Source: Leucothrix arctica (GTDB lineage Bacteria > Pseudomonadota > Gammaproteobacteria > Thiotrichales > Thiotrichaceae). Taken from it: a stretch of DNA of 64,000 bases. The translations under genes and the position numbers were made by a program. Each line of letters begins with the position of its first letter. Position 1 is the stretch's first letter. The notes under the pieces were generated by a model. That model saw only the letters and a list, made by a program, of their open reading frames with translations, was not told where the DNA came from and searched no databases. The DNA lies in NCBI RefSeq assembly GCF_003172895.1, contig NZ_QGKL01000042.1:434001-498000 (forward strand), given 5' to 3'. Below, piece by piece: positions 4,928 through 62,919 of the stretch.

Positions 4928-4958
4928 CCAGCACAAATAACAGTCGTCAGCAAAAACG

Positions 4959-5627: not shown

Positions 5628-5895
5628 TCTGATATCACTCTTAATCTATATAGGCTGACTATCTGACTTTTTAGTGCTTAAATCAATAAAATTGCTTAGT
5701 GGAACCGTATTTAAGTACATTAATTTCTCTTAATTAATCCGCTATTTTCTCTTACAAAAACACACAAATACGGCTCACTAAATAGTTGACTCTACCTACC
5801 AACAAGCCTAAGTTAATTGATAATATCAACTAACTACATTTAAAGTTTTTTATAGTAAAAACCTACACTAAATATGCCCGATTGGAGCAACAATC

Positions 5896-7104: not shown

Positions 7105-7230
7105 AATAGGGCTGAAGTGCACCATTAGTCGCTAGCACGGTAGGCTTTTGGTGCTTAACCTTGAAAAACACCTTTACTGACAAGATGTTAAGAGAACTAG
7201 CACAATACTTGTGCGTAATTGGATAGTTCC

Positions 7231-8052
7231 ATGCCTGATGTTTCGTTTTTACTATTAGCTGCCATTATTATCGCGGCAATTGCAGCCTTCGCGATACCTG
7301 CCTATAAGCTCCGCAAAGTAGTCGAAGAGCCATTCCCAGCAGAGTGGAGAGTCATTCTTAAACGTAACTTTCCGGTGTATCGCTTATTGCCCACTGACTT
7401 ACAGCTACAGCTTAAAAAGCTCATCAAGCAGTTTATCTACGAGAAGAGCTTTACCGGTTGTGCGGGACAAGAGATCACTGACGAAGTTAAAGTGACTATT
7501 GCGGCTTCTGCCTGCATCTTACTGCTAAACCGTCATAGCGATACCTATGCAGGTCTTAACTATATTTTTGTCTACCCGACCGCTTTTGTTGCTAAACGGG
7601 AAATCGTAAACTCAGCAGGTTTAGTGATTGAAAAGCCAAAAGGGTTACTCGGCGAGTCATGGAGTAACGGCAAGGTCATCCTATCTTGGGAAGACGTAGT
7701 GCGTGGTAATCGTAACTTTACCGATGGTTCAAATGTTGCCATCCATGAGTTTGCCCACCAGTTAGACCATGAGTCAGGTGCCACTAATGGCGCGCCATTT
7801 ATAGGTGATAGCAAACGCTCTGAAAACTGGGCGGCTGTCTTTAGTAATGAATTTCGTAAGCTTCAACAAGCCGCACAGCGTCGCGATGAAACCGTGATTA
7901 ATTACTATGGTGCGACTGAGCCAGCAGAGTTCTTTGCGGTAGTGACGGAAACGTTTTTTGAAAAACCCCGTGAAATGAGGGCAAATCATCCCGCCTTATT
8001 TGAACAGCTTAAAAGTTACTACCAAGTAGACCCAAGCGACTGGATCGCTTAA
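7231..8052 (+). CDS. mtfA: zinc-dependent peptidase of the MtfA family
   Basis: A 273-aa MtfA-like metallopeptidase. In E. coli MtfA binds the regulator Mlc and so affects ptsG expression. The gluzincin motif HEFAHQLD (His172-Glu-Phe-Ala-His176) is present, with EPAEFFAVVTETFFE downstream, which supplies the third ligand region. Unlike E. coli MtfA there is an N-terminal hydrophobic segment (residues about 6-24), suggesting membrane anchoring. A TTG lies four codons upstream in frame, but ATG 7231 is the more likely start; no strong ribosome site is visible for either. It stands apart from its neighbours. Confidence 0.85.
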   Translation: MPDVSFLLLAAIIIAAIAAFAIPAYKLRKVVEEPFPAEWRVILKRNFPVYRLLPTDLQLQLKKLIKQFIYEKSFTGCAGQEITDEVKVTIAASACILLLNRHSDTYAGLNYIFVYPTAFVAKREIVNSAGLVIEKPKGLLGESWSNGKVILSWEDVVRGNRNFTDGSNVAIHEFAHQLDHESGATNGAPFIGDSKRSENWAAVFSNEFRKLQQAAQRRDETVINYYGATEPAEFFAVVTETFFEKPREMRANHPALFEQLKSYYQVDPSDWIA

Positions 8053-8108
8053 ATATGCGCTAAACAAAGGATGAGTCATAGACTTTAGTCTTAATCGCAT
8101 TAAACAAC

Positions 8109-8153
8109 TTGACGATCAAATACTTTATTATCTAATATGGAGATATCTATATC
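8109..8153 (+). promoter_or_regulatory. candidate promoter and operator of the sulfur cluster
   Basis: TTGACG (8109-8114) and TAATAT (8133-8138) are 18 nt apart. The palindrome GATAT-CT-ATATC at 8142-8153 overlaps the expected transcription start, the usual place for a repressor site. Sulfide-responsive ArsR-type regulators such as BigR act on similar operons elsewhere, but no such regulator gene is in this window. Motif reading only. Confidence 0.4.
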
Positions 8154-8186
8154 AGTAAATGAAATATTCGTTAAGGAAGAAGCAAA

Positions 8187-9071
8187 ATGACACGTCAAAC
8201 AGTACTAAAACCAGAAGTGTTTGAGTTCTTAGAACCATCATCATGCACTTTTTCTTACATCGTCAAAGATCCAACCTCTAACAAGTGCGCAGTTGTTGAT
8301 TCTGTTTTGGACTTTGACTATCCGTCAGGCACGGTTTCTTACCAAAGCGCCAATAAAATAATCGCCGCGATTCGTGAAAAAGAACTCGATGTCGTTTGGT
8401 TGCTTGAGACTCATGTCCATGCTGATCACTTGTCAGCAGCACCGTACATACAAGATGCTGTGGGTGGAAAGATTGCCATCAGCAAGCACATAACAACAGT
8501 ACAAGAAGTGTTCGGTAAGTTGTTTAACGAAGGAACAGAGTTCCAACGTACAGGCGAGCAATTCGACAAACTGTTAGACGACGACGAAACTTACACTGTA
8601 GGCGCATTACAAGGTCAAGCCCTTTACACACCGGGCCATACGCCTGCTTGTGTTGCACATGTCATTGGCGATGCAGCCTTTGTTGGCGACACAATGTTTA
8701 TGCCAGACATCGGTACTGCACGTACTGACTTCCCAGGCGGTGACGCACGCACACTTTACCACTCGATTCAGCGCGTACTGAGCTTGCCTGAAGACACACG
8801 TCTTTTCCTATGTCACGACTACCCACCAGAAGGGCGTGGATTCACTTTTGAGTCATCGGTTCATGACCAGAAGATGTCTAACATTCACGTGAAAGATGGC
8901 ATCTCTGAAGATGACTTTGTTGTGATGCGTGAAGCACGTGATAAAGAATCTGGTATGCCCCGCTTAATCTTTCCCTCATTGCAGGTTAATATGCGCGCAG
9001 GTCACTTTCCTGAACCTGCTACCGAAGATGCTGTTTACTTAAAAGTACCGGTGTCAGGTTTGAAAAAATAA
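8187..9071 (+). CDS. persulfide dioxygenase-like metallo-beta-lactamase-fold protein
   Basis: A 294-aa MBL-fold enzyme of the ETHE1/Blh group, which oxidises glutathione persulfide to sulfite with a mononuclear iron. The metal motif THVHADHLSA (His76, His78, Asp80, His81) is followed by further ligands in YTPGHTPACV and FVGDTMFMPDIGTARTDFPGG. The last string is typical of persulfide dioxygenases and Blh, not glyoxalase II. AAGGAAG precedes the ATG. It is the first gene of a cluster including a DUF442-SQR protein, as seen in other sulfide-oxidising bacteria. Cytoplasmic, with no signal peptide. Confidence 0.9.
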   Translation: MTRQTVLKPEVFEFLEPSSCTFSYIVKDPTSNKCAVVDSVLDFDYPSGTVSYQSANKIIAAIREKELDVVWLLETHVHADHLSAAPYIQDAVGGKIAISKHITTVQEVFGKLFNEGTEFQRTGEQFDKLLDDDETYTVGALQGQALYTPGHTPACVAHVIGDAAFVGDTMFMPDIGTARTDFPGGDARTLYHSIQRVLSLPEDTRLFLCHDYPPEGRGFTFESSVHDQKMSNIHVKDGISEDDFVVMREARDKESGMPRLIFPSLQVNMRAGHFPEPATEDAVYLKVPVSGLKK

Positions 9072-9099
9072 ATAGCACAACCATCCACGGGACGATTAT

Positions 9100-10680
9100 A
9101 TGAATATGAAAGTAGAAAACGATCAGTTAAGCATTTCAGGTCAAATCAATGTAGACGCATTGGCAGGCCTAAAAGAACAGGGTGTAGAAGTCCTTATCTG
9201 TAATCGTCCCGATGGTGAAGAAGCCGATCAGCCTAGTTTTGAAGAGATCAAAGCCGCTGCTGCTGAGATAGGTATTGAAGCACACCACATTCCTTATGCA
9301 CCGGGTGCATTTACAGATGCTGATCGTAAGAATTTTGCGGCTGTATTGGACGGTGGAAAGAGAACACATGCTTATTGTCGTACGGGTGGCCGTGTGGGTG
9401 GAATCGTTAAAGCTATTGAAGATGCAAAGTCTGCGACAGACACTAAAAGTGACAGTGGTTCAGAGTCTTATGATGTGGTCATCATTGGTGCTGGTTCAGC
9501 GGGTATTTCAACCGCAGCAAGTCTACACAAACGTAATGCATCCGCTAGCATTGCGCTAATCGACCCTTCAGAAGATCACTACTACCAGCCAGGTTGGACA
9601 ATGGTCGGTGGCGGTGTATTTGGCGCTGAAACAACTCACAAGAAAATGCAGGATGTGATTCCAAGTTTTACTAAGTGGATCAAAGATTCTGTCGCTTTAT
9701 TTAACCCTGCTGAAAACACAGTGACACTAACCAGTGGCAAAGTAGTTAGCTATAAGCACCTAGTGGTTGCACCGGGTCTAAAACTAAACTGGGCAGGTAT
9801 TGAAGGTCTTGAAGAGACACTGGGTAAGAACGGCGTCACATCAAACTACCAGTTTGGTTTAGCGTCTTACACTTGGAAATTAGTCCAAGAACTTAAAGGT
9901 GGTAAGGCGTTATTTACACAACCACCTATGCCAATCAAATGCGCAGGTGCACCGCAGAAAGCACTATACCTTTCTGCATCAGAATGGTTTAGCTCTGGGC
10001 GCCTAAAAGATATTGATATTAGCTTCTACAATGCCGGTGGTGTTTTATTCGGTGTGGCTGACTATGTTCCAGCACTGATGGAATACATGGATAAGTACAA
10101 AGTTGATCTTCAGTTTAACAACACACTGTTCAAAATTGACGGTGAGTCAAAGACAGCTTGGTTTAAAACGAAGAACGACGCTGGCGAAGAGACAATTGTT
10201 GAGAGCAAGTTCGACATGATTCACGTTTGCCCACCACAGTGTGCGCCAGACTTTATCAGCAGTAGTGAGTTAGCAGACGCAGCAGGTTGGTTAGACGTTG
10301 ACCCTGCATCGCTACAGCATAAGAAATTCCCAAATGTTTGGGGCGCGGGTGACGTAATGAATACGACTAACGCTAAGACGATGGCTGCAGCACGTAAACA
10401 AGCACCTGTTGTTGCTCAAAACATTACTGAAGCGATGGCTGGAAAAAGCGGCACTGCTGCTTATGACGGTTATGGCTCATGCCCACTAACGGTTGAAAAA
10501 GGTAAGGTTGTCCTTGCTGAATTTACTTACGGTGGAAAGGTTAATCCTACATTCCCTGACTGGGTTAATGATGGCACTAAGCCAACAAAACTCGCATGGA
10601 CCTTGAAAGCAAACGTATTGCCGACCATTTATTGGAACGCAATGTTGAAAGGCCACGAATGGTTCGCCGGCCCTAAATAA
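9100..10680 (+). CDS. DUF442 sulfurtransferase-like domain fused to sulfide:quinone oxidoreductase
   Basis: A 526-aa two-domain protein. Residues 1-105 are a DUF442/TIGR01244 (Blh phosphatase-like) domain with the cysteine loop AYCRTGGR (Cys93, Arg98). Residues 124-526 are an SQR-type flavoprotein. It has the FAD-binding VVIIGAGSAG (127-136), Cys281 in IKCAGAPQKA, Cys377/Cys381 in HVCPPQCAP, and Cys461. SQR oxidises sulfide and passes electrons to quinone; the sulfane sulfur would go to an acceptor that the attached domain or the neighbouring dioxygenase handles. A low-complexity linker (SATDTKSDSGSES) joins the halves. The fusion is in one uninterrupted frame. Confidence 0.88.
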   Translation: MNMKVENDQLSISGQINVDALAGLKEQGVEVLICNRPDGEEADQPSFEEIKAAAAEIGIEAHHIPYAPGAFTDADRKNFAAVLDGGKRTHAYCRTGGRVGGIVKAIEDAKSATDTKSDSGSESYDVVIIGAGSAGISTAASLHKRNASASIALIDPSEDHYYQPGWTMVGGGVFGAETTHKKMQDVIPSFTKWIKDSVALFNPAENTVTLTSGKVVSYKHLVVAPGLKLNWAGIEGLEETLGKNGVTSNYQFGLASYTWKLVQELKGGKALFTQPPMPIKCAGAPQKALYLSASEWFSSGRLKDIDISFYNAGGVLFGVADYVPALMEYMDKYKVDLQFNNTLFKIDGESKTAWFKTKNDAGEETIVESKFDMIHVCPPQCAPDFISSSELADAAGWLDVDPASLQHKKFPNVWGAGDVMNTTNAKTMAAARKQAPVVAQNITEAMAGKSGTAAYDGYGSCPLTVEKGKVVLAEFTYGGKVNPTFPDWVNDGTKPTKLAWTLKANVLPTIYWNAMLKGHEWFAGPK

Positions 10681-10696
10681 CTAAGAAAATTCGCGT

Positions 10697-12415
10697 ATGG
10701 AAAAACTAAGTCGATTTGTCCCATTGCTGGGGCAAATCAGCACCTATGATCGTGCCAAATTTAGCAGCGACCTCATTGCAGCAACTGTTGTAACGATCAT
10801 GCTGATACCGCAGTCACTGGCTTACGCTATGTTAGCCGGTCTCCCTGCAGAATTAGGTCTATACGCGAGTATATTTCCGCTGTTGGCTTACGCTTTGTTT
10901 GGCTCATGCAAAACATTAGCCGTAGGCCCAGTGGCGATTGCCTCATTAATGACGGCTTCAGCCTTAGGAAAAGTCACCGCGCTCGGCATCATCGGTTATG
11001 TAGAAGGTGCAATGCTGTTGGCGCTACTGTCAGGTATCTTCCTGCTACTGCTGGGTGTCTTTAGGCTTGGTTTTATCTCCAACTTTTTATCGCACCCTGT
11101 CGTTGTTGGCTTCATCACGGCTTCAGGCTTAGTGATAGCTCTGAGTCAGTTTAAACACATCTTAGGTATCAAAGCAGAAGGTCATAACTTTGTTGAAATT
11201 GTTTACTCAACGATAAGTAACCTCACACAATTTAATACATACACTCTCATTATCGGTGTTTGCTCAGTCCTATTTTTGTTTTGGGCTAGGCAAGGCTCCG
11301 CTAAGTTACTAGAACGATTTGGAATAAGTAAAAGCTTAGCATTTTCACTCTCCAAAGCTGCACCCGTTGTCGGTGTAGCAGTCACGACGTTAGTCGTTTC
11401 ACAGTTCGGTTTAGACAAACAAGGCGTCGCTATTGTAGGAACAATCCCTACCGGCATGCCGTCACTCGTCCTACCTAGTTTCTCGTGGGCAGCAGTGGAA
11501 GCACTATTTGTACCGGCCGTTCTGATTTCGATCATTGGGTATGTTGAGTCAGTCTCTGTTGGCAGAACACTATCTGCCAAGAAACGTGAGCGCATAGACG
11601 GCAACCAAGAGCTTATCGCCTTAGGTGCTGCAAACATCGCATCCGGTATGTCAGGTGCATTCCCAGTGACAGGAGGTTTTGCTCGCTCAGTGGTTAACTA
11701 TGATGCGGGTGCAGAAACGCAGTTTGCGGCTATCTTTACTGCCGTTGGTATTTCATTAGCAGCGTTGTTCTTAACACCACTATTGCACTACCTACCCATC
11801 GCAATGCTAGCCGCGACCATTATTGTTGCCGTGTTGTCATTGGTTGATTTCTCAATCTTTAAGCGAGCTTGGGACTTTTCAAAGAGTGACTTTGCAGCGG
11901 TCTCAATTACGGTATTTTTGACCTTATTAATGGGTGTAGAGATTGGTGTTGCCAGCGGTATTATTGCTTCAATACTGTTATTGCTTCATCACACGTCTAA
12001 GCCGCACATTGCAGAAGTAGGACTACTACCTAACTCTGAGCATTTTAGAAATATTTTGCATTTTGATGTGGAGTGTCACCCTTCAGTACTGTCTTTACGG
12101 GTCGACGAAAGCCTATTGTTTTCAAACGTGAGTTATTTGGAAGAATACATTTCAGACTTAATCACCAAACGTCCAGATGCTAAAGCAGTCATTTTAGACT
12201 GTGCCGCGATCAACACAATCGATTTAAGCGCGGTAGAAATGCTGGAAGCACTGAATCATCGACTATCCCACCAGAACATAGCCTTACACCTGTCGGAAGT
12301 CAAAGTACCTGTACAGCGCCTTTTAAAGCGCTCAGGTTTGTTAGAAGAACTGACTGGCGAGATGCATTTAAGCCAGTACGACGCGTATCAATCTTTGGTA
12401 AAACATTATGAGTAA
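10697..12415 (+). CDS. SulP-family anion permease with STAS domain
   Basis: A 572-aa SLC26/SulP transporter. The N-terminal membrane part has the family motif AGLPAELGLYASIFPLLAYA (residues about 48-67) and 10-12 hydrophobic segments. The C-terminal cytoplasmic STAS domain spans about residues 450-560 (AVILDCAAINTIDLSAVEML). SulP proteins move sulfate, bicarbonate or other anions. Between an SQR gene and YeeE/TauE genes, sulfate or another sulfur oxyanion is the likeliest load. Its last 8 nt overlap the next gene, indicating coupled translation. Confidence 0.9.
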   Translation: MEKLSRFVPLLGQISTYDRAKFSSDLIAATVVTIMLIPQSLAYAMLAGLPAELGLYASIFPLLAYALFGSCKTLAVGPVAIASLMTASALGKVTALGIIGYVEGAMLLALLSGIFLLLLGVFRLGFISNFLSHPVVVGFITASGLVIALSQFKHILGIKAEGHNFVEIVYSTISNLTQFNTYTLIIGVCSVLFLFWARQGSAKLLERFGISKSLAFSLSKAAPVVGVAVTTLVVSQFGLDKQGVAIVGTIPTGMPSLVLPSFSWAAVEALFVPAVLISIIGYVESVSVGRTLSAKKRERIDGNQELIALGAANIASGMSGAFPVTGGFARSVVNYDAGAETQFAAIFTAVGISLAALFLTPLLHYLPIAMLAATIIVAVLSLVDFSIFKRAWDFSKSDFAAVSITVFLTLLMGVEIGVASGIIASILLLLHHTSKPHIAEVGLLPNSEHFRNILHFDVECHPSVLSLRVDESLLFSNVSYLEEYISDLITKRPDAKAVILDCAAINTIDLSAVEMLEALNHRLSHQNIALHLSEVKVPVQRLLKRSGLLEELTGEMHLSQYDAYQSLVKHYE

Positions 12416-12818
12416 CTTTTTCTACCCAATTTTAGGTGGGGTGCTGATCGGCTTGTCCGCAACACTACTACTGCTTTTGCTAGGCCGCATTGCGGGTATT
12501 AGCGGCATTGTCTGGGCAGCCATTACTGAAACAGGACAACGCACATGGCGTCTGATCTTTTTAGGCGGCGTAATCTTTGGTGGTTCACTGTTTCACTGGG
12601 TATCGGGCGTGCCTATTCCAGAAGGTAACGACAACTGGCTGCTAGCGATTATCGCTGGCCTGATTGTTGGTGTCGGTGTGAAGCTAGGAAGTGGTTGCAC
12701 GAGTGGTCATGGTGTCTGTGGAATAGGGCGTTTATCAATGCGCTCACTCACGGCAACAATCACCTTTATGGTAGCGGGAATCGTGACGGTTGCTGTTGTT
12801 AATACGGTTACGGGTTAA
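12408..12818 (+). CDS. YeeE/YedE-family sulfur transport protein, first half
   Basis: A 136-aa membrane protein with about four hydrophobic segments and the hallmark GSGCTSGHGVCG (around residues 95-106). Its conserved cysteine lies in the thiosulfate channel of the YeeE/TsuA family. Full-length YeeE proteins are about 350 aa; here the function is split over two adjacent short genes, a known arrangement. Start ATG 12408 lies inside the end of the SulP gene. Confidence 0.87.
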   Translation: MSNFFYPILGGVLIGLSATLLLLLLGRIAGISGIVWAAITETGQRTWRLIFLGGVIFGGSLFHWVSGVPIPEGNDNWLLAIIAGLIVGVGVKLGSGCTSGHGVCGIGRLSMRSLTATITFMVAGIVTVAVVNTVTG

Positions 12819-12827
12819 GGAGTGTTT

Positions 12828-13235
12828 ATGTTTAATATTAGTGCATTAATTTGCGGTTTACTCTTTGGTCTTGGACTTGCGGCATCTGGCATGACCAACC
12901 CTGAGAAAGTCATTGGCTTCCTTGACCTATTTGGTAACTGGGACCCTGATTTGTTGTTTGTGATGGGTAGTGCGGTACTTACAACGGTTATCTCGTTTCG
13001 CTTTGTATTGAAAAAAGACAAGCCATTTTTCGCGCCAATCTTCTCGCTTCCAACAGCAGCAGGTTTGGATAAGCGCCTTCTTACGGGTGCTAGCTTATTT
13101 GGTATCGGTTGGGGCTTATATGGCTACTGTCCTGGGCCAGCAGTTGCGGCACTAGGTTACTTGAAACCAACGGCATTTTTATTCGTAGCAGCGATGCTAT
13201 TAGGCATGTTATTTGTCGAGAGAAAGCTGAAGTAA
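12828..13235 (+). CDS. YeeE/YedE-family (DUF6691) sulfur transport protein, second half
   Basis: A 135-aa membrane protein with four hydrophobic segments and GYCPGPAVAALG (around residues 106-117), the counterpart cysteine motif of the second YeeE half. ATG 12828 is chosen over an in-frame GTG six nt upstream, because the GTG lies inside the AAGGAG ribosome site (12817-12822). With the preceding gene it probably forms one transporter for thiosulfate or another sulfur compound. Confidence 0.87.
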   Translation: MFNISALICGLLFGLGLAASGMTNPEKVIGFLDLFGNWDPDLLFVMGSAVLTTVISFRFVLKKDKPFFAPIFSLPTAAGLDKRLLTGASLFGIGWGLYGYCPGPAVAALGYLKPTAFLFVAAMLLGMLFVERKLK

Positions 13236-13357
13236 TACGTTATGACTATTGTTTGCGATAAACACATCTTAACTATTAAGGTTTAGTGCTGGAACTGTGT
13301 TTATACGTGGGGCATATTAGCACTATTACTAGTTTCTCCATCAGCGACGGACAACAC

Positions 13358-14185
13358 ATGTTAAACGAACTGCTTTCAGCTTGGCCCATCCTTATAGCGC
13401 TTATGGTAACGGGTGTTTTCGCAGGTATTTTGGCAGGGCTACTGGGCGTAGGTGGCGGTATTGTCATCGTACCTGTGTTGTATTTCTTGCTACAGTTTTT
13501 TGATGTATCGCCTACCAGTGCCATAGAAATAGCCGTTGCAACGTCTCTTGCGATAATCGTTCCCACGGCCATTTCTTCGATTAGAGCGCACTACTTTAAA
13601 GGTAATGTCGATTTACCGATTCTGAAATGGTGGTCTGGTTTTATTTTGGTGTTCGCGGTTATTGGCAGCTTGCTCATAACGTACGTTAACGGTGAAAGCC
13701 TGACGCTAATGTTTGGGGTGATTGCGGTTTGTGTGAGTTTAAACCTGTTATTTCGAGCAAGTGCGCCATCACTATTTTCAGAACTTCCTAGTAAGCTATG
13801 GCAGGGAGTTATGGCGTCACTGACAGGCTTGCTCTCAGTGATGATAGGGATTGGCGGTGGGACATTGGGCGTGCCTTTACTGACAAGCTTCAACGTCAAA
13901 ACACATCGAGCAGTAGGGACAGCCGCCGCATTTGGGCTGGTGATAGCCTTACCTGCTGTGATAACGCTATTACTAGTAGGTCAAGCACCTACTGACGCAC
14001 CTTTCGGTAACTTCGGTTTGGTCAACGTACCCGCGTTTCTAGCGATGGTGCCTTTGACGGTAATGTTTGCGCCTGTTGGTGCTCGTATTGGAGCAACGTT
14101 AGATCAGGCGCAGTTGAAGCGGGTGTTTGCGGTGGCGCTGCTTATAACAGGTAGCCGCATGCTATATCAGGTTGCATCACTCTGA
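13358..14185 (+). CDS. TauE/SafE-family sulfite exporter
   Basis: A membrane protein of 275 aa from ATG 13358 (a GTG 24 codons upstream is possible but gives an untypical hydrophilic extension). The glycine-rich AGILAGLLGVGGGIVIVP, repeated in altered form as SVMIGIGGGTLGVPLL, is the TauE/SafE hallmark, and eight or so hydrophobic segments are present. The family exports sulfite or organosulfonates. Following a persulfide dioxygenase (which produces sulfite), sulfite export is the natural reading. The 3' end overlaps mksB by 9 nt on the other strand. Confidence 0.85.
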   Translation: MLNELLSAWPILIALMVTGVFAGILAGLLGVGGGIVIVPVLYFLLQFFDVSPTSAIEIAVATSLAIIVPTAISSIRAHYFKGNVDLPILKWWSGFILVFAVIGSLLITYVNGESLTLMFGVIAVCVSLNLLFRASAPSLFSELPSKLWQGVMASLTGLLSVMIGIGGGTLGVPLLTSFNVKTHRAVGTAAAFGLVIALPAVITLLLVGQAPTDAPFGNFGLVNVPAFLAMVPLTVMFAPVGARIGATLDQAQLKRVFAVALLITGSRMLYQVASL

Positions 14186-16921
14186 TTCAACCCGCTCAAA
14201 AGTAGGCCTAACCAACACCAACTTATCCGACTCACGCGTTTTCTTATGAATCATCAGCTTACCCACCGAGTTATTCTCAAGCTGATAAAGCCGCTTACAA
14301 ATACCACTACCCTTAGGGCTAGCAAAGATCGGAATCAACCCAAGCTTCACCGCAATATCATGAATATTCTGCGCATTCGCATCATCCAAACTATCAATCT
14401 CATCCACATAAAACGGCAGACGAATAGTCTCACCAATCTTCTTCTTACCTGAGATCGCTTGGTTAAGCATCGAGATGAATATAATGGTCTTAACCGTTAT
14501 AGAAGTACCGTTACTTTCAAGGTCAAGACTCTGATATCGCTTCTCTTTTCCATGCGTATCAACCACGATAAGCACCAAGTCATACAGGTCAGCAATGGTG
14601 ATATTCACCTTATCCAACAACGGTTTAATCGACCCCATCAAGTCATCAATAGACGACTCATCAAGACCACCAAACAGAGGCAGGTCGTTTTCCTTCCACT
14701 CTTTGATTTTCTGAACGCGCTGATACCACTCATTTTTGCCAATCACTATCTTGATCGACTGCAAGTTAGAAATCGTCTGACTAGAGAGCAGTTGGTTCAA
14801 GTTGTTTAGGTAGCTATCAATCGCATCCACGCTATCAATAATGCCGCGACAATGTGACGCAAAGCTGGTGAAAATACGCTTCCATTCGTCATTGATGCTT
14901 TTCTCTTGCTCAGGAATCGCTTCCAGCTGGTTGCTTAAGAAGCCAATGGCATCAGTATTGGTCAGTCCCGCAAGGTGTATAAAACGACTACGCAGCTGCT
15001 CAAGGTTTTGCGCAATTGCACTACGGTCTTCACCCAACGCTTCAAACTGCTTACGGTATTCATCGTACAGCGCTTCAAAACTCAGCGTATCGTAGATCAC
15101 TTCCGTTTCGATCCAATCACTATCAGGCGAATGACTTTCAATCCAACGCTTCTGACCTGTTAACACTTCAATCTGTTGACGCGTCGTTTTGATGTTTTCA
15201 GCAAACTGCTTCACCTTCTGACGAATCTCATACGCCTTCTCGTCAAACTCACCCATCTCATGTTTATGCTGAACAATAGCCGCCATGATCTGTTCGCTTT
15301 GCTCAATCCACTTCTGGTAATCAACCTTAGCCGCTTGCCAGTCTGCATGTTTTTTCAACTGTGCGTTAATCGCCGCCAGCGAGACTTTAATCTCATCAAC
15401 ACGCTTCTGTAACGATGCTTGCTCACGAATAGAATTGATCTTTTCGCGCAACTCATTACTTTCAGTGGTCAGCTTATCTACCTGTTTTTGCAAGAATTCA
15501 GGGTTACCCAATTGCTGCAAACCAAGTGCCGATACCGACGATAAATCAACACTCAAACCCGGTAACTTAAATTTGTCACCGTCAGAAACAACCAACTGCT
15601 GACTCAGGAAAGCTTTAAGCGCCGTCGCATCTTCTACTTCAAACTTGTCACTCAGCAAGCTCCACAACTCAACATTGCTCAGCTTATAAAGGGTGCTTAG
15701 CTCACTATCACTCAATACGCTCTTAAGCTGCACATACAGTGTGCTAGACAAGTTATTCAGTTGTAACTGAGTCTTGCTGAGCTTTTCTTGTTTAAATGCT
15801 AGGCTGTTTTCCAAGGCACTTAGGTCGTTATTACGCACGTTAAATAGCTTTTCTTGCAGGCCATCTAGCTCTTGTTCTAGGTTTGCCGCTTTCTGCTTTT
15901 CTAACTCAACCACTATCGTATTGCACTCACGAGTCAAAGCCTCATAGCGCGTAATATCGTTATTGATCACACCTAAGCGCTGATCTTCACGACTAATAGT
16001 GCTTTGCTTATCTTGCTTCGCCAGCGTGATCTCAGGCAAGCGATCTTTAGCGCGTGTCTGCTGGTCTTGGCAAGTCTCTAGCTTCTCATTGAGTAGCTGA
16101 TCTTCCTCTGCAAACAGCTTATTAGCTTTTAGGTGATAACTAACCAACTTACCTTGGCGCTTTTTAAGCTGCTCAGTACGTTCGATTAGGTTTTCAATGG
16201 TCAGCTGGTTATCTTGCAAACGTCTTAACGCATCTTGCTCCTTACGCACTTTCTCATAAGGCTCGCTAAACTCACGCTGCACATTGATCCGTTGTTCTTT
16301 TTCCATCACCGAGTGATTGACCTGTTCAATCTGAGCTTTCAGGTCTTTTATGCTAATGCCTTTAAGTTGTAACAACTGACGGAATAAACGCTTAAACAAA
16401 CGATAATCGCGCGTATCACCAATCAAGCCTAAACCACTTGGGTTTTGCTTTTGGCTAAATGGGCGAAGCAGGGCGCGGTGATGTTTTGACTCTAACTGGC
16501 GACCTAATAACTTGGTACTAAACAGCGGAAACAGGAAGTCAGGTTTCTTCGGCGTCAGCTTGCCGTCGGTATTATCAATGAAGTCATTACTGTCATATTC
16601 ACCATCCAGCAAAAACTTCTCAGGCTGGCTACCAAAGCCCGTCGCACTCAGGCCAAACACCTTCTTGCCCGTCAGCGTGTTTAGCTCAAACAGAATGTAC
16701 GAACCCACCGCAGGGAAGTAATGCTTCCACGTCTCATCCAGCGTGTAACCAAAGTTTATCTCTTTAAAGCTGTCGATATATAAGAACTGTAGCGTATTGA
16801 TAATCGACGTCTTTCCGCGATTATTCAGCGCCACCAAATGCAACGAGTCAGATAAATCGAACTCCGCATACTGGCAGTTCGCAGAGTTAATTAAGATGAT
16901 TTTAGTCGGTTGAAGTTTCAT
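14177..16921 (-). CDS. mksB: condensin-like SMC ATPase MksB
   Basis: A 914-aa SMC-like ATPase. The Walker A is ALNNRGKT (residues 31-38). Long stretches of helical, charged coiled coil run about 185-420 and 465-650, with a hinge-like part between. The ABC signature region is ESNGTS (802-807) and Walker B is RLPFYVDEID (Asp840, Glu841). It is much shorter than MukB (about 1480 aa) and close to Pseudomonas MksB. MksB with MksF (kleisin) and MksE loads on DNA and compacts chromosomes; MksG/JetD-containing relatives (Wadjet) cut plasmids. No MksG/JetD gene is adjacent: the next gene is a convergent exporter. ATG overlaps the mksE TGA. Confidence 0.85.
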   Translation of the reverse strand: MKLQPTKIILINSANCQYAEFDLSDSLHLVALNNRGKTSIINTLQFLYIDSFKEINFGYTLDETWKHYFPAVGSYILFELNTLTGKKVFGLSATGFGSQPEKFLLDGEYDSNDFIDNTDGKLTPKKPDFLFPLFSTKLLGRQLESKHHRALLRPFSQKQNPSGLGLIGDTRDYRLFKRLFRQLLQLKGISIKDLKAQIEQVNHSVMEKEQRINVQREFSEPYEKVRKEQDALRRLQDNQLTIENLIERTEQLKKRQGKLVSYHLKANKLFAEEDQLLNEKLETCQDQQTRAKDRLPEITLAKQDKQSTISREDQRLGVINNDITRYEALTRECNTIVVELEKQKAANLEQELDGLQEKLFNVRNNDLSALENSLAFKQEKLSKTQLQLNNLSSTLYVQLKSVLSDSELSTLYKLSNVELWSLLSDKFEVEDATALKAFLSQQLVVSDGDKFKLPGLSVDLSSVSALGLQQLGNPEFLQKQVDKLTTESNELREKINSIREQASLQKRVDEIKVSLAAINAQLKKHADWQAAKVDYQKWIEQSEQIMAAIVQHKHEMGEFDEKAYEIRQKVKQFAENIKTTRQQIEVLTGQKRWIESHSPDSDWIETEVIYDTLSFEALYDEYRKQFEALGEDRSAIAQNLEQLRSRFIHLAGLTNTDAIGFLSNQLEAIPEQEKSINDEWKRIFTSFASHCRGIIDSVDAIDSYLNNLNQLLSSQTISNLQSIKIVIGKNEWYQRVQKIKEWKENDLPLFGGLDESSIDDLMGSIKPLLDKVNITIADLYDLVLIVVDTHGKEKRYQSLDLESNGTSITVKTIIFISMLNQAISGKKKIGETIRLPFYVDEIDSLDDANAQNIHDIAVKLGLIPIFASPKGSGICKRLYQLENNSVGKLMIHKKTRESDKLVLVRPTFERVESE

Positions 16922-17502
16922 GCATCACCTTTGCTTGCGGTCTTAGTCTGCTGTTCCAATATGTCTAAACTCAATTGTAAAAAGCGGTGTGTCGGGGTCA
17001 ATAAGCGTAGGAAGTTATCCGCCTCACGGTACTCAACAAAACCCGAACGATGCATATTATTCAGTAAGCTATGCAGCTGTCGTGTCTCGCCAACTTCCAT
17101 GTTCTGCATGTAGTTGCGGTAACGCTCCGACTTAAAATGCGGCAACTGATCACATTCAAACCCTTGCTCGTCAAATAAGCTCTCGATGATATCTTTACCA
17201 CCTGATGAAATAGACTCCACCATAATCGTCACGAACACCAAGCAACGACGGGAATAGTCATTGGCGCGCTCGTCGTTATCATCTTTAAGGTAGTAGTAAT
17301 CCAGCTCATGAACCAAGGTGTAGCCCAGTGTCGCCAATTCCGTTTGATAGGCTTCAAGGTTGTTATGCAAAAAGTGATACAACTCACCCGTGTGCAGTGA
17401 CAAATGCATACCGCCGACTAAGGCTTGAAACACGTCCTTCTTACCCGGAATGTCGAATACAGACGGTGTCGTCTCTGCGACAGTGCTAAATAGATCAGTC
17501 AT
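16918..17502 (-). CDS. mksE: condensin accessory subunit MksE
   Basis: A 194-aa predicted winged-helix (kite-type) protein, of the size and position of MksE/JetB between the kleisin and the ATPase. It is helical with recognisable winged-helix pieces (NNMHRSGFVEYREADNFLRL near residues 145-165). ATG 17502 is preferred over a GTG three codons earlier, since AAAGG lies 8 nt before the ATG. It overlaps mksF by 8 nt and mksB by 4 nt, so the three proteins are made in a coupled fashion. Assigned mainly from operon context and general fold. Confidence 0.75.
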   Translation of the reverse strand: MTDLFSTVAETTPSVFDIPGKKDVFQALVGGMHLSLHTGELYHFLHNNLEAYQTELATLGYTLVHELDYYYLKDDNDERANDYSRRCLVFVTIMVESISSGGKDIIESLFDEQGFECDQLPHFKSERYRNYMQNMEVGETRQLHSLLNNMHRSGFVEYREADNFLRLLTPTHRFLQLSLDILEQQTKTASKGDA

Positions 17503-18721
17503 CCGTGTCACCTTTGTAAATGCTTATACCTTGCCAAGTCTCATCGCCGAGTTGGTAGTTTTGTAGGTCGTTTGTAATCGTAATATTGTGTCGCTTTTGA
17601 TGCAGGCAAACCACCGTGACTGCGCGTAGCACTTCATTGGCCGTCAGCGAGTCATGGGCTTGTAAAAAGTACTCAACGACATTGGTTTTTGCAGGCATCT
17701 CGTCCAGCAACTTGAGCACCGCTTCTGTTTCTAATGGCGACTGCGCTGAACTCATCGCGTCATCTAGCATAATGCTGTCAGGCTCTGTCTGTAGCGACCA
17801 GATATCCGCCAGAAACCCTCGCGCGCCACCCATGGTGATGTGTCGTTCACGTCGTAACAAACGGCCAAATGGGAAAGAGGGCAGCTCGCTGAACTTGCCT
17901 TGTTCTAGTTGATTGAAAATGACATTCGCCGCATCAACCAGTTTTGATTCTTGAGTGAGCTTTTCACGCAGGGGGGTCAGCTCCTGCTGCGCTTCGTTTA
18001 AGTCGTGTCGTGTTTGCTCGTTTAGCTGGGCACGTCTGGCACGGCTTTGTAGAAACAGTTGGCGTAGCTCAGTTTGTCCGCTAAAGCGCGCTTCGCCGAT
18101 CTCTAACATTTGTTTCAAACTATCCATAATCGTACCGAACGATCCCGACGGTGAAATCATTTCACGTAACGGCTCAAGGTACTCATCCCACAGGCGATTG
18201 GCTTCGGATAGTCGCTCGCGGTAGCTGAGGTTTTCGTCGTTTGACTTGAGCTTACGAACATCGTTGATCACGCCTAAACGGTTTTGCGAAGACTTCTGAG
18301 CAATGTTATCTAACTCACGGCCTAGCTTGTTTAAATTGCGAAGCGTGAGTGCAGTCGAGTCATCTTCATAAGCGCGTTTGAGGTCGTCAATACGTTGCTG
18401 TAATGCACTGATGTAGCCTTGGATGATCGCTGAGTTAACAGGTTGCGATTCTTGGTAGAGATACTCCAAAAACTCACGGTACGGCAGGGCTAAGATGAAA
18501 CGCGGGTTGTAGTCGTTGGTTTCAACAATGATGCGGTAGTTGAGCAGTTGTTGGAATATGTAACCGCTGTCTGGGCCAGCGCTGTTTTTGGTCGCGTCGA
18601 TGCGTTCCAGTAGTTCAGGCTCGGTGAAGCCTTGCTCGTAGTGGAACAATACGTCTGCTAGCTCGAAGTATTCGCTGAGTTTGTTAACCCGTTCTTTGGG
18701 CTTGTAGTAGCGGAAACCCAT
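17495..18721 (-). CDS. mksF: condensin kleisin-like subunit MksF
   Basis: A 408-aa protein beginning with a winged-helix-like region (LADVLFHYEQGFTEPELLER, residues about 22-41), followed by long helices (100-280) and a C-terminal winged-helix-like region. This is the build of MksF/JetA kleisins. It is first in the F-E-B order known for mks operons. Its start lies 92 nt downstream of the AT-rich Detocs-like operon in the same direction, and its codon usage and GC content are like the chromosomal genes, unlike that operon. Confidence 0.75.
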   Translation of the reverse strand: MGFRYYKPKERVNKLSEYFELADVLFHYEQGFTEPELLERIDATKNSAGPDSGYIFQQLLNYRIIVETNDYNPRFILALPYREFLEYLYQESQPVNSAIIQGYISALQQRIDDLKRAYEDDSTALTLRNLNKLGRELDNIAQKSSQNRLGVINDVRKLKSNDENLSYRERLSEANRLWDEYLEPLREMISPSGSFGTIMDSLKQMLEIGEARFSGQTELRQLFLQSRARRAQLNEQTRHDLNEAQQELTPLREKLTQESKLVDAANVIFNQLEQGKFSELPSFPFGRLLRRERHITMGGARGFLADIWSLQTEPDSIMLDDAMSSAQSPLETEAVLKLLDEMPAKTNVVEYFLQAHDSLTANEVLRAVTVVCLHQKRHNITITNDLQNYQLGDETWQGISIYKGDTDD

Positions 18722-18812: not shown

Positions 18813-19997
18813 CTATGGTTTATTAATTATGAAAATTACGATAAGCAATATTATAATTGAGATATTTTTAGTGCTCAACCATGATATTACACTATTAATA
18901 AAGTTTGGACACCAACTCCCTTCTCTGGAATTAAATGGTTTTATTTCTGATTTAATCAATACTGGTGAGAAGATTCTAGAAAAATAATCATCAACATTTT
19001 CATATAAATTATGCCCAGAGTCATAAAACCTATTTATAAAATCTGTTCCAGCAAGACCTTTAAAACCAACTCGACCAGCCATTCCTGCTCCAGGAATAAA
19101 CATATGACTTAAAATTAATATTTTATCTTTTGTACCGCATTCGTTTATAATATTATTAATGGAGATCTTTTTTCTTATTTTATGCCAAGGGAAATCTGAA
19201 GGTAAAACACTACTCATTAATATGACTTTATCAACTTTGATTGAACAATTTGATGATAATGACTTTAGGAAGTAACCAATAATATATGTACCAAAACTAT
19301 GACCAATGAAGTTAACACTATTATTAGGATAGTCTTTCAGTAGGTCTATAATTTGTTCGGAAAACTTATTTACTTCTTTGTTTCTAGTAAATGGTAAGAA
19401 AAATCTTACCAAGTCAAAAAAACCAAAATTATAGGAAAAATAGAAAATCTTTTCTTTATGGTGTTCAATAACATCCGTTCTTAGTTTTTCTTGCCAGTTG
19501 CCATCAGTCCTAATTCCATGAACACTGATCAAAACTGACTTACTTGACGATGAACTATTATTATATTTCTTTTTACTTCCAGCCATCCATTGAATATGCT
19601 TACCTAGACTCTCTTTCCATTCAGAGTGAAGAGGGCTATAAAAGTTAATTGAGAAGTTGAATGATTTAAAAATACCAGAGTATTCATGTAATAATTTTTG
19701 ATGTTGAGTAATAGCATAAACCGTGTCTGGTCTATTGAATTCACCCTCAGTATCATGATCTAAAGTATTGAGCAGAGTTATACCGCCGTCAGTTATAGGA
19801 TTACCGTTATCTCTATTGGGTATATTAAGATCTAGAATTAACAAGTTTACTTCGAATCTCTCTAAATAATCTAGTGCGCTTTCTATAGATTCAACACTTT
19901 TAATGTTAGAAAGCAAGCCACTCAAACTATTAATGTAATTGATTATATCATCACGCTTGTTAATGTTATCTTCAACAAATAAAATATTAAATGCCAC
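18813..19997 (-). CDS. receiver domain fused to alpha/beta-hydrolase effector, DtcC-like
   Basis: A 394-aa two-domain protein. Residues 1-135 form a response-regulator receiver with acidic pair Glu9/Asp10 and phospho-acceptor Asp56 in LLILDLNIP. The usual KP motif of strand 5 is not evident. A Ser-rich linker (148-153) leads to an alpha/beta-hydrolase (154-345). It has the oxyanion motif SVHGIRTDGNW, nucleophile elbow GHSFGT (Ser234), candidate acid Asp291 and candidate His329 (DSGHN). Residues about 378-392 form a hydrophobic tail that could insert in the membrane. The start is GTG and overlaps dtcB by 11 nt. In Detocs the third gene joins a receiver to a killing domain, most often a nucleosidase. 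Here a lipase/esterase-like domain takes that place. The hydrolysed substrate is unknown. Confidence 0.8.
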   Translation of the reverse strand: MAFNILFVEDNINKRDDIINYINSLSGLLSNIKSVESIESALDYLERFEVNLLILDLNIPNRDNGNPITDGGITLLNTLDHDTEGEFNRPDTVYAITQHQKLLHEYSGIFKSFNFSINFYSPLHSEWKESLGKHIQWMAGSKKKYNNSSSSSKSVLISVHGIRTDGNWQEKLRTDVIEHHKEKIFYFSYNFGFFDLVRFFLPFTRNKEVNKFSEQIIDLLKDYPNNSVNFIGHSFGTYIIGYFLKSLSSNCSIKVDKVILMSSVLPSDFPWHKIRKKISINNIINECGTKDKILILSHMFIPGAGMAGRVGFKGLAGTDFINRFYDSGHNLYENVDDYFSRIFSPVLIKSEIKPFNSREGSWCPNFINSVISWLSTKNISIIILLIVIFIINKP

Positions 19998-20445
19998 TAG
20001 TTAATTCCTTAGGTATTAGTTTTATAAATTCTTGTTTCCAATTACTGTATCTTGAATCATACATGACAGAACCTAAATATATATTAGAATAGTCATTATC
20101 AAGTGTTGTGTTAATATCTTCTAAAGTAACTAGCTGGCTATTTCTCCCGAAAACATCGAACTGTGTAAACACTATTACAGGAGTAATAATCTCTTCGTAA
20201 TCCATCACGTCTAAGATATCTTTTCCACCTAGCGCTCTCATTCTTCCAGACCCAGACTTCTCACCATTAAATGTAGGTAGAGACATATCAAGAACAATTA
20301 GATCAAAATTTGAATTAATAAGCAGGTCTACAGTTTCGTCGAATGAATAGCTTTCAGTGAATTGAAAGTTATCATAAATAGAAAGAACGTCAAGAACATC
20401 AGTGATTTTCTGAGGTGTGTCATCAGCTATCAGTATTTTATGCAT
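19987..20445 (-). CDS. stand-alone receiver protein, DtcB-like
   Basis: A 152-aa single-domain response regulator with Asp8/Asp9, phospho-acceptor Asp53 (LIVLDMSLP) and the Thr94 position (VIVFTQFD). It has no output domain. Like the receiver of the next protein it lacks a clear KP motif and ends with a related helix: SNWKQEFIK here, SEWKESLGK in the partner. In Detocs the free receiver is thought to act as a phosphate sink that prevents accidental activation of the effector. It overlaps the kinase gene by 8 nt and the effector gene by 11 nt. Confidence 0.8.
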   Translation of the reverse strand: MHKILIADDTPQKITDVLDVLSIYDNFQFTESYSFDETVDLLINSNFDLIVLDMSLPTFNGEKSGSGRMRALGGKDILDVMDYEEIITPVIVFTQFDVFGRNSQLVTLEDINTTLDNDYSNIYLGSVMYDSRYSNWKQEFIKLIPKELTSGI

Positions 20446-23400
20446 TGGTACCTAGTATTATATCAGTATTGCAGTTAAATCTAACGAAAAACATATCGTT
20501 TACAGTTTCTACTATCACTTCGGACGATTGACCAATATCCTTGTTGAGTATTTTTTTAACCTTACATACGCCGCTTCCTTTGTCCTGATTTGCATACTTC
20601 TCGAATTCTGTTAGCCTTATTGATTGAATTTCTTGGGCTCTTATTTTTAAATGGCTGATTTTGCTTTTATTGCAGGTGTTAGATATATTGAAGTTTATGA
20701 TGTTGTTTTCAATATTAACTATAACATTTATTTCTAAGTTATTTCTCAAGCTAGCATGTTCGAATGAATTAGTTATTAATAAGCTGAAAATATCAAAAAA
20801 ATTCGGGATTAAATCACCGCGTATTAAACAATTATGATGAACCTTATTATTTAATTTTGCTGTAGTCTCTGGAAAGTAGTTTGATATATTATCAAAAACA
20901 ATCTTTACTATTGTATCTAGTGACAAGGGGTGTTTACTAGTCTTTTTATAATCAAACCAAGTTGTTAATTCATCTATACTTGCGCTAAACTCAATTTTTG
21001 TTTTTGAAATATGACGATGTAGGTGAGTGTCATTCCCTCTGATGTTTGACATAAGTTTATCAAAACATTTAGAAGTATTTTCTTTAAAGTCTTCAGATAT
21101 TCTTTCTTTAGCCTCATCAAGGCATTTGTCTAGCATTTCATCAAGCTGTTTAAAACTAAATTCTATAAACTCTTCAACCGATGTGCTTGTATTTAGACAG
21201 TCTAAAAACAAATCAAGTTGCTCATAATCAAATCCAAAGTTGAAAATTTTATTTTCATCTAAAAATTCACCAGTGTTTACATGAATCCAGCTTTTCGCTT
21301 CTGTGATTAAAGAGTCCATGCTTTTTGTAAAAACTACTAATGCTGTATTTATTTCTTTTAGCGACTCCTTTGTGCGTAACGAGTAGTGATTTTTCCAAAA
21401 ATCATTATCTTCATATTCCCCATCGCTATTTTTTTCACATGAAAGATTATTAGCTTTTATTGGGCTCCAAAGGTGGTTAACCATGCCACCATGTCTTATA
21501 TTTAAATTTAAATAATTATCAAGACCATAAGATTTATTGACTGCATATTCATCGCGTATGTGAAGAAACATTAAGCCAAGTCTTTTTAGTTTTTCATCAA
21601 CGATATAGAAGTAGTTATCATCTTCATCACTATCTCTATCTCTAATGTGGCTATCTCTAATGTGGCTTTCTTCCAGTCGATGCACACCTTTTAACCCCTC
21701 TTTTAATGACTTGTAATCACTGCTAATGCCACTTATTATTATTGGTTTAAGTTTATCCTTGTCAATTATAACTTTACCATTACCAATTTCCCCACGTACC
21801 ATTTCACCCAAATATGACTTTGATATTTCGGAGAGTTTTTTAATTATGGATTTGTTTTTTATAGAATAAGAAATATTATAGTTAATAAGACTTCTGAGTA
21901 ATTTAATGCGAAATAATATTACATCATCTTGACCATTAAAGAACCTAATTAAGCCATCTAGTACATCTTCTGTAAGTATTTCTTCTACAAAAAAACTTAG
22001 CTTTTCATTATATGGAAAGTCATTGAAATTGTAATTGCTTGTAATTTTCATTTTTCTAAAATACTGATTACAGCATAATGATATCTTTTGTAAAAACTCT
22101 CCGTTTCTTTGGTTGTGGAAATGATAAACGATGGCGAGATTAATTAATGAGTTTTCATCTAATACCTTTATTGATTTAGCACATTTATCTATTATGTACT
22201 CAAGGGGTAGCCTGTATCTTCCATCGTTAGATAAAAGTTTTTCGGCTGAAAATCCGAGTAATTTCTCATAATCTCCCATATTACATAAGCATCGTATAGA
22301 TCTTAAGAGAGCATGGTCGTGAATTTGTTTATCCGCATTAGAAATAGAATTATAACAATCTAAGGACTTAGGATAAGAGTTATTATAATAATGCGTATCT
22401 GCTATTGCTTTAGAAAGTCTATCATCATCAACACTTATACTCTTAAATTCAGATGTGATTAGTCTTTTTCCTGTTGACTCTCTTCCAGTTTCTTTCCAAA
22501 AATCTAACCATATCTCATCATAAACTGGTTTGGAATCAATATAACAACAACTACCAAAGTCTGATGAAAATGGATTAATGAAAGTTGATAAATTTTCAGA
22601 ATAATCGTAGAGGTAGTTAATATCAGAGTCATCTTTTCCCTCTCCATATTTTTTCAAAGATCCTGTTAGGATAAATGACCAGTCGTTATATGAATGAGAT
22701 AAGGCAATCTTTCTGAATACATCTAAGTCTAGTTTATCATATTTCCCTGAATTGAATTTTTTGAAATACTCTAATACTTCTCCAACAAGTCCCTCTAAGC
22801 TATAATCTATATCAACTCTAGATACGCACTTAGATAGTAGTTCTAATATAATTAGGTTAGATGGGTCTTCATGTACTAGTTTTTTTAGAATATCAGAACA
22901 CTCTTCATATTTACCTTGGTAATAGAGTTTGCAAGCATCTAAAAAGCTAATGTTATTTTTTGTTATTCTTGATGGTTTTTTAAAGCCACTCTTATAACAA
23001 ATGAAATCAATATTTTCGTCATTAATTTTTTTTGATATTCCCTCTAAAAAAAAGGCTGCTTCTTTCTTGTGTTTTTTTGATATATGTCTAATTAGCCTTA
23101 TGCAATTAGTATAGTAATCAAATATAGGTAGAGTTTGAAGCCTAGCTAAAATAACCTGTGGATTTTTTATATCCATGCTTGGGCTATAAAGATTTAAAAA
23201 CTCTACCTCTTTATATTCATTGAGACCTATTTTTTTCATTTCTTCCATATTGCTTTCAATTAAGAAGGTGTATCTGGAAGCTGTTATACTTGGGTTTATT
23301 TTGGTAATTATATTTGATAAGTAGTTTTCAGAATGCTCATTACCAACTGGGTTTATATCCAAATAATCATTAAATATGTGATTGTTTGTATCATTCCTGT

Positions 23401-23887
23401 GAGTTAATAGTTCTGCTTCAGTACCCCATACACTTAAACCATACTTATTTTTAAAATTAGAAATTATTTTTTTAGCTTCTTCAGTGTACCCTAGTAGATA
23501 TTTTTTTTCGAACTCCTGTCTTAGGTATATATACTCATTAATTTCATTTGAATAAGCATTGATTAGATCAATAGCCCATTCTAGACTTGACATTAAGTCT
23601 ATTTCTTTAGCGCTATAATCTAATATCACATGGCTTTTTCTTCTGCTTATGCTACATAAAGCTATTTCTCTTAAGTCTTTATGATTAAAAATATATTTTC
23701 TTCTTTGTGACTTGTTCCTGCTTTTTTCAATTCTTAATTTATTTAAAAATAAAATAGATTTTTTATTTCTTTCTGTTTCATTTTTTATATAGGTGATCTT
23801 TCTAAGGTCATCTAACTCTTTTGACGAGACTGGAGTGAACTTTTTACCGGATTTAACTCTTTTCTTTTTTAATTTGTTTCTAGGCAT
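20438..23887 (-). CDS. large GHKL sensor histidine kinase, DtcA-like
   Basis: A 1149-aa cytoplasmic kinase with no membrane segment. The first 80 residues are very basic (MPRNKLKKKRVKSGKKF). Residues about 100-720 are helical and repeat-like, including TPR-like stretches such as ACKLYYQGKYEECSDILKKL and DTHYYNNSYPKSLDCYNSI. A variable acidic linker follows (SHIRDSHIRDRDSDEDD). A helical dimerisation region precedes the GHKL ATPase domain and contains HLHRHI (955-960), a candidate phospho-acceptor. The ATPase domain has the N box LLITNSFEHA (Asn1040) and a G box DKGSGVCKV (1102-1110). A long sensor with a C-terminal kinase, followed by two receiver genes, is the Detocs DtcA layout. Coding is strikingly AT-rich, suggesting horizontal origin. 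Confidence 0.8.
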   Translation of the reverse strand: MPRNKLKKKRVKSGKKFTPVSSKELDDLRKITYIKNETERNKKSILFLNKLRIEKSRNKSQRRKYIFNHKDLREIALCSISRRKSHVILDYSAKEIDLMSSLEWAIDLINAYSNEINEYIYLRQEFEKKYLLGYTEEAKKIISNFKNKYGLSVWGTEAELLTHRNDTNNHIFNDYLDINPVGNEHSENYLSNIITKINPSITASRYTFLIESNMEEMKKIGLNEYKEVEFLNLYSPSMDIKNPQVILARLQTLPIFDYYTNCIRLIRHISKKHKKEAAFFLEGISKKINDENIDFICYKSGFKKPSRITKNNISFLDACKLYYQGKYEECSDILKKLVHEDPSNLIILELLSKCVSRVDIDYSLEGLVGEVLEYFKKFNSGKYDKLDLDVFRKIALSHSYNDWSFILTGSLKKYGEGKDDSDINYLYDYSENLSTFINPFSSDFGSCCYIDSKPVYDEIWLDFWKETGRESTGKRLITSEFKSISVDDDRLSKAIADTHYYNNSYPKSLDCYNSISNADKQIHDHALLRSIRCLCNMGDYEKLLGFSAEKLLSNDGRYRLPLEYIIDKCAKSIKVLDENSLINLAIVYHFHNQRNGEFLQKISLCCNQYFRKMKITSNYNFNDFPYNEKLSFFVEEILTEDVLDGLIRFFNGQDDVILFRIKLLRSLINYNISYSIKNKSIIKKLSEISKSYLGEMVRGEIGNGKVIIDKDKLKPIIISGISSDYKSLKEGLKGVHRLEESHIRDSHIRDRDSDEDDNYFYIVDEKLKRLGLMFLHIRDEYAVNKSYGLDNYLNLNIRHGGMVNHLWSPIKANNLSCEKNSDGEYEDNDFWKNHYSLRTKESLKEINTALVVFTKSMDSLITEAKSWIHVNTGEFLDENKIFNFGFDYEQLDLFLDCLNTSTSVEEFIEFSFKQLDEMLDKCLDEAKERISEDFKENTSKCFDKLMSNIRGNDTHLHRHISKTKIEFSASIDELTTWFDYKKTSKHPLSLDTIVKIVFDNISNYFPETTAKLNNKVHHNCLIRGDLIPNFFDIFSLLITNSFEHASLRNNLEINVIVNIENNIINFNISNTCNKSKISHLKIRAQEIQSIRLTEFEKYANQDKGSGVCKVKKILNKDIGQSSEVIVETVNDMFFVRFNCNTDIILGTNA

Positions 23888-62832: not shown

Positions 62833-62919
62833 GAGATGATAGGTTTTATGATTTACTTTGAGTTACCACACATAGTAGATACGTATTACAAGAATATATA
62901 TATACCACGTAGTACAGTT

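Follow-up and report, generated by a model that had tools for sequence, protein, structure and literature searches.

The best-described relatives of the locus considered here are the condensin-like Mks complexes of Pseudomonas and the Mks and Wadjet systems that carry a nuclease. In P. aeruginosa, Smc-ScpAB and MksBEF coexist and both act in chromosome layout and segregation, as described in passages of PMC7485682, and a passage of a review treats this MksBEF as JetABCD minus JetD (PMC10586767). Among the papers found on JetD and MksBEF, the phrase 'loss of JetD' occurred only in that review. The relevant part of a study of C. glutamicum identifies MksG as the nuclease of the MksFEBG system and as a protein that binds the kleisin (PMC10123090). 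The same part also draws mksFEBG operons of four genes for P. aeruginosa PA14 and P. putida KT2440; an operon with a nuclease thus occurs in some strains of Pseudomonas, either in addition to the three-gene type or in its place. No paper joining Leucothrix and condensin was found in our literature search. We examined 64 kb of a Leucothrix genome (the window; positions 434001-498000 of contig C37 in the 4.75-Mb genome G000), which encodes a further Mks complex without a nuclease, apparently independent of that of Pseudomonas.

The mksFEB operon and its upstream neighbour

An intact, overlapping operon of three genes was detected at window positions 14177-18721 on the minus strand, in the order mksF-mksE-mksB.

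17495-18721, minus strand: mksF, kleisin subunit, 408 aa; NCBIfam NF040857 at 2.7e-15 over residues 8-300
16918-17511, minus strand: mksE, KITE subunit, 197 aa from a GTG start; PF21980 at 4.6e-26 and NF040858 at 4.6e-18
14177-16921, minus strand: mksB, SMC-like ATPase, 914 aa; NF040859 at 2.2e-37; head motifs intact

The mksF and mksE genes overlap by 17 bp (8 bp if a possible alternative start of mksE, an in-frame ATG at 17502, is used) and mksE and mksB by 4 bp. These overlaps, together with the Pfam and NCBIfam matches, confirmed the F-E-B operon proposed in the initial annotation. The MksE match to PF21980 was above the family cut-off, while MksB and MksF were named by no family in the Pfam scan. 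All three proteins matched the NCBIfam Mks models, with 128, 66 and 56 bits for MksB, MksE and MksF, and none reached the equivalog cut-off for Pseudomonas-type MksBEF (1900, 400 and 750 bits, respectively). The adjacent kleisin, KITE and SMC genes make up the gene set of the MksBEF superfamily. In the usual naming, MksB is the SMC protein and MksF the kleisin; the NCBIfam labels are swapped, the 926-position SMC model NF040859 being called 'MksF' and the 412-position kleisin model NF040857 'MksB'.

The motifs ALNNRGKT, SNGTSITVK and LPFYVDE of the MksB head, which we take to be Walker A, the C-motif and Walker B, look intact in alignment A2, in agreement with the Walker A and B motifs described earlier. 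PADLOC models gave weak matches to MksB, the best being LmuB of Lamassu (1.1e-6) and the best JetC model reaching 5.4e-4; no PADLOC Jet model matched MksE or MksF. Sequence searches of solved structures detected no match at E values up to 0.1 for MksB or up to 1 for MksE and MksF, and an AlphaFold model of MksF was of low confidence (pLDDT 54) and too poor for use.

The window MksB was 74, 70 and 66% identical to those of three other Leucothrix genomes. L. pacifica (locus L007) was the closest named relative, with 74% identity for MksB and 71% for MksF. Comparison with the congeners indicated purifying selection on all three genes, with pN of 0.17-0.22 against saturated pS of 0.78-0.91. Between the window and L. 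pacifica, two species without the nuclease, pN was 0.17 for mksB, 0.20 for mksE and 0.18 for mksF, and pS was 0.84-0.91, a saturated level from which no dN/dS value can be given. As pN lay far below this saturated pS, the nuclease-less operon is, judged from its sequence, not decaying.

The mks operon lies 91 bp downstream of, and on the same strand as, a candidate defence module, PDC-M60 (18813-23887).

20438-23887, minus strand: PDC-M60 A, PADLOC 2.6e-41
19987-20445, minus strand: PDC-M60 B, PADLOC 2.7e-31
18813-19997, minus strand: PDC-M60 C, PADLOC 1.4e-17

The A protein (1149 aa) had no Pfam match, and its C-terminus resembles a histidine-kinase-type ATPase domain by eye. B is a receiver-domain protein and C combines a receiver with an alpha/beta-hydrolase, both on the basis of Pfam matches below the cut-off. 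Among 63 genomes of the order, M60A was detected in one, that of the window, and among 369 genomes of the class in two, again including that of the window. Klebsiella variicola and Enterobacter hormaechei also have PDC-M60 on conjugative plasmids, and in E. hormaechei an integrase gene adjoins it. The third M60 gene was far more divergent in Sphingobium and Agrobacterium, so the effector part may vary. Elsewhere in the window, six tRNA genes stand in a row (62758-63580, plus strand), four of them tRNA-Gly(gcc).

Nuclease genes in the window, the genus and the genome

The absence of a TOPRIM nuclease gene beside the operon, noted in the initial annotation, was borne out by profile searches. None of the ORFs of at least 70 aa in the 64-kb window matched an iterated MksG profile at E values up to 1e-3. 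The TOPRIM nuclease (JetD or MksG) inside the operon that marks Wadjet was lacking at the window locus and present at one of the four Leucothrix loci.

These four loci were identified from matches to the window MksB at E values up to 1e-3, which occurred in 6 of the 63 genomes of the order; four matches were strong, all in the genus and including the window, and two were weak (7.1e-4 and 9.8e-4). The mks system was present in four of seven genus genomes. Of the three without it, two are 97-100% complete and one is 56% complete. A working assumption that the surroundings of the operon are unrelated in each Leucothrix was dropped, as an mtfA flank was shared by all four loci. Their common layout consists of mksB, a variable slot and a convergent mtfA gene.

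7219-8052, plus strand: mtfA-like M90 peptidase gene, the shared right-hand landmark; product 65-67% identical to the L007, L008 and L009 copies (for L007 over the last 76 residues only; its contig ends shortly past the matched part)
8187-14185, plus strand: sulfur-type cluster in the slot, convergent; MBL-fold, BLH-phosphatase/oxidoreductase fusion, SulP-like, two YeeE/YedE-like and TauE genes (SulP-like and YeeE/YedE-like named from reading the sequences)

PF06167 was found in the L009 copy of the M90 peptidase, and we take this gene to be mtfA. Apart from the sulfur-type cluster of the window, the slot contained glgC in L008 (named from reading its translation), a 243-aa ORF without a Pfam match in L. 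pacifica and mksG in L009. In this last locus, on a MAG contig at the same place as L004 of genome G031, a 296-aa JetD-like gene starts 62 bp after mksB. Its product exceeded the cut-offs of JetD_C (23.7 against 22 bits) and DUF2399 (24.4 against 23.4 bits), matched PADLOC JetD1 at 3.8e-12 and retained the E and DxD residues shared by every sequence of alignment A1, presumably the TOPRIM catalytic residues. Its AlphaFold model (pLDDT 36) was too poor for use. A search with this single protein detected a match in one of the seven genus genomes, its own; three of the seven are 56-69% complete, and the search missed even the contig C6 gene described below and hence is informative on close relatives only.

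Remnants of mksG were sought downstream of mksB in the window, L007 and L008, and no protein match with an E value below 0.05 was detected. The DNA matches there consisted of the mksB end (in L008), the mtfA end and short stretches (13-18 bases) whose E values were at least 0.15. An empty-site comparison based on TauE was set aside; the TauE homologues of G028 and G030 have different neighbours and are uninformative on the ancestral mks site.

Searches were extended to the whole genome, where JetD_C (PF09983) had no match. This model is insensitive, and it was dropped as the sole test for a nuclease because none of six other MksG-type proteins scanned reached its cut-off and it also missed the genome's own gene on contig C6. 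A profile built from eight MksG-like proteins (A1) and the iterated profile were used instead. Profile A1, in which the C6 gene is itself one of the eight rows, gave one match in the genome, on contig C6 and away from the mks locus. The earlier proposal that the nuclease might be encoded elsewhere was upheld to the extent that a TOPRIM (DUF7281) gene exists; this gene is the fourth of an SMC-E-F-G operon of its own.

The second operon comprises genes for a DUF3584 SMC protein, MksE, a kleisin and the TOPRIM protein, in this order, and spans two contigs (C34, 200-2456, locus L139; C6, 190-5402, locus L042). The last gene encodes the TOPRIM protein (284 aa; DUF7281 at 1.2e-49) and has a 4-bp overlap with the kleisin gene. 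One piece of the SMC gene lies near an end of C34 and the other near an end of C6. Both contig ends carry the same 103-aa transposase ORF (PF01527), assumed to belong to an IS3-type element; from this arrangement, an insertion sequence seems to have interrupted the gene. A WYL-type regulator, identified by eye, belongs to this operon. None of the four C6-side proteins had a PADLOC match better than 0.0048. In a congener that lacks the window-type mksB (G028), an operon of this second kind had all four frames open (L077), and in the MksG tree the C6 nuclease fell in a starred group with those of L076 and L077, apart from the L009 nuclease. The two operons of the window's genome are alike in being Muk/Mks-like with KITE and kleisin genes but differ in that the C34/C6 operon has the order SMC-E-F-G, includes a TOPRIM gene, has an SMC gene split at an IS copy and belongs to a different family.

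MksB phylogeny and wider survey

An MksE survey gave 36 places in 34 of 369 genomes, and all 33 genomes other than the window's own were examined. Twenty-six loci with an MksB of the window kind (B profile E value of 1e-50 or better) were read with their flanks, a non-random sample consisting of the window, L007-L009, six window-type loci from the MksE survey, five plasmid matches and loci from 11 further genomes. By profile, a nuclease-like gene was present in 12 loci and none was detected in 14. Nine of these 14 came from one family, f160, which we infer to be Pseudomonadaceae; no nuclease was found next to the operon in any of the nine f160 loci read, and two f160 MksB proteins scanned scored 1991 and 2003 bits, above the equivalog cut-off of 1900. 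Strong matches in seven further f160 genomes (G471, G475, G542, G558, G647, G719 and G753) and the plasmid match H6 lie outside the set read with flanks. One locus of another family (L120 of G538, family f139; 4743-9396) has an F-E-B-like operon without a detected nuclease, followed by a TamA-type gene by eye. Being outside both f160 and Leucothrix, it is a possible third nuclease-less lineage.

Relatives of MksB were detected in 6 of 72,556 plasmid records, and all five whose surroundings were read had a nuclease-like gene. No plasmid relative was detected by DNA similarity, no match to MksF or MksB was found in 50,697 phage records, and none of 10 candidate stretches in viral contigs was confirmed as a relative.

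A phylogeny of MksB was constructed with 27 rows, comprising 24 of the 26 loci, without L114 (f160) and the partial L121, and three out-group rows. The window protein grouped with Mks proteins, including nuclease-bearing ones, and not with an unrelated SMC-like family, as expected from the Mks-type assignment made initially. The Leucothrix proteins formed one clade (100/100), which joined the MksB of a Salinibacter plasmid with an adjacent nuclease-like gene (100/97, with long branches involved), while the f160 proteins and L046 formed a separate clade (100/99). A forced union of Leucothrix with this Pseudomonas-type clade was rejected (p-AU 3.3e-5), for a group that was named after the tree had been seen. 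A second, quick tree, with the partial L121 added but without L050, L108, L111 and the out-group, again grouped Leucothrix with two rows that have a nuclease, Salinibacter and L121, and here too there were long-branch warnings. The order of the window and L007 differed between the two trees, and the deep joins are uncertain because of the long branches. In the MksG tree, the L009 nuclease was nearest to those of Salinibacter and L121, a placement that was not starred (no strong support). Plain identity fails to separate the types, as the window MksB was 21% identical to Pseudomonas-type rows and 20% identical to nuclease-bearing rows from outside Leucothrix in alignment A2.

Proposed role and relation to known systems

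Overall, these results point, with somewhat better than even confidence, to an accessory condensin of the chromosome that descends from a Wadjet-like system. The families suggest a Muk-like Mks complex in which an MksB dimer, the MksF kleisin and the MksE KITE subunit would bind DNA and move it with energy from ATP hydrolysis. The lineage would formerly have possessed a four-subunit, plasmid-restricting system of the MksFEBG or Wadjet kind, and the window species, like two of its three relatives, would have lost the TOPRIM nuclease separately from the MksBEF lineage of Pseudomonas. In its nuclease-free form, the complex would most likely act alongside Smc-ScpAB as an additional, accessory condensin that loops the chromosome and helps to segregate it, as MksBEF does in P. 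aeruginosa. We infer loss rather than gain, loop extrusion and a chromosomal role; the last of these is argued from analogy with the pairing of Smc and MksBEF in P. aeruginosa. ScpA is present in the window's genome (125 bits), which presumably therefore has Smc-ScpAB. MukB is not convincingly present; the sole genome match to its N-terminal family PF04310, a 243-aa ORF at C37:77300 and off the mks locus, was below the cut-off (22.2 against 23 bits).

The position of MksB outside the Pseudomonas clade and the JetD-like gene in the matching slot of one relative suggest that nuclease loss at this locus was probably an event distinct from that in Pseudomonas. One early loss followed by a regain in L009 may be an alternative history; an ancestral nuclease needs three losses, and early loss with regain needs two events. 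The slot beside mtfA holds mksG in one species and unrelated genes in three, with the motor complex intact, and from this we offer the tentative suggestion that one genus has been caught at several stages from a plasmid killer to a nuclease-free organiser of DNA or silencer of foreign circles.

Other readings retain a defensive function. The patchy distribution over the genus looks more like that of an accessory or defence gene than that of a core condensin, and together with the occurrence of relatives on plasmids and the adjoining candidate defence module, it would suit a nuclease-free defence in which small circles or invading DNA would be restrained or silenced by loop extrusion alone, as proposed for Smc5/6. 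However, the plasmid relatives with known surroundings all have a nuclease-like gene, the upstream neighbour varies (in L. pacifica it is a UvrD/Rep-like helicase, named by eye) and we know of no bacterial example of such silencing; we regard this reading as rather unlikely. The C6 TOPRIM protein could alternatively act in trans, so that the window operon would still be a defence system. Such a protein is indeed encoded in the same genome and, with the SMC gene of its own operon split, may lack its own motor. Nevertheless, its separate position in the MksG tree, the overlap with its own kleisin gene and the presence of the whole second operon in a congener without window-type mksB tie it to that operon, and supply in trans is judged unlikely.

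Two further readings carry less weight than the preferred one of an accessory condensin. A Wadjet-like system that no longer has a function and is decaying would be consistent with the missing nuclease and with the visibly broken second operon of the genome, but the three intact frames, the retained head motifs and the strong purifying selection between two nuclease-less species make this very unlikely. Finally, MksFEB and PDC-M60ABC could constitute one six-gene system, with the membrane-anchored alpha/beta hydrolase PDC-M60C replacing the nuclease as effector, as the six genes stand in a row on one strand and no minus-strand terminator-like site is listed between the two modules. Against this, no match to MksB, MksE, MksF or MksG was detected in five other M60 loci (G155 and plasmids of Klebsiella, Enterobacter, Sphingobium and Agrobacterium), M60A was found only in the window's own genome among the 63 of the order, the Mks operon of L. 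pacifica follows a different gene, and mksF has a promoter-like site immediately before it, although such sites were no commoner than in shuffled sequence. PDC-M60 was rejected as a part of the Mks system on the strength of the five M60 loci and, from gene content, looks like an accidental neighbour rather than a partner; the six-gene reading is accordingly given hardly any credence.

In comparison with known systems, the window operon shares with Pseudomonas-type MksBEF (NF040857-NF040859; PMC7485682) the grouping of F, E and B and similar subunit sizes, and differs from it in the 21% identity of MksB, its score of 128 bits against a cut-off of 1900 and its separate clade. Its SMC, kleisin and KITE genes are homologous to those of MksBEFG and Wadjet JetABCD, as represented by C. 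glutamicum MksFEBG, and are arranged in the same order, and a congener has a fourth, JetD-like gene, whereas the window locus is without a nuclease gene, PADLOC models match its MksB weakly and no Jet model matches its MksE or MksF. Among MksB proteins from outside the genus, that of the operon of Salinibacter ruber plasmid pSR76 (L107) stands closest in the tree, and kleisin- and KITE-sized genes precede its gene, but this operon is plasmid-borne, its MksB is approximately 24% identical to that of the window, and mksB is followed by a gene for a 291-aa protein that matches the MksG profile at 2e-80 and DUF7281 with 28.8 bits (cut-off 27). A nuclease-less MksBEF was already known; what the Leucothrix operon adds is an apparently independent loss, alongside a sister species that has a nuclease gene at this locus.
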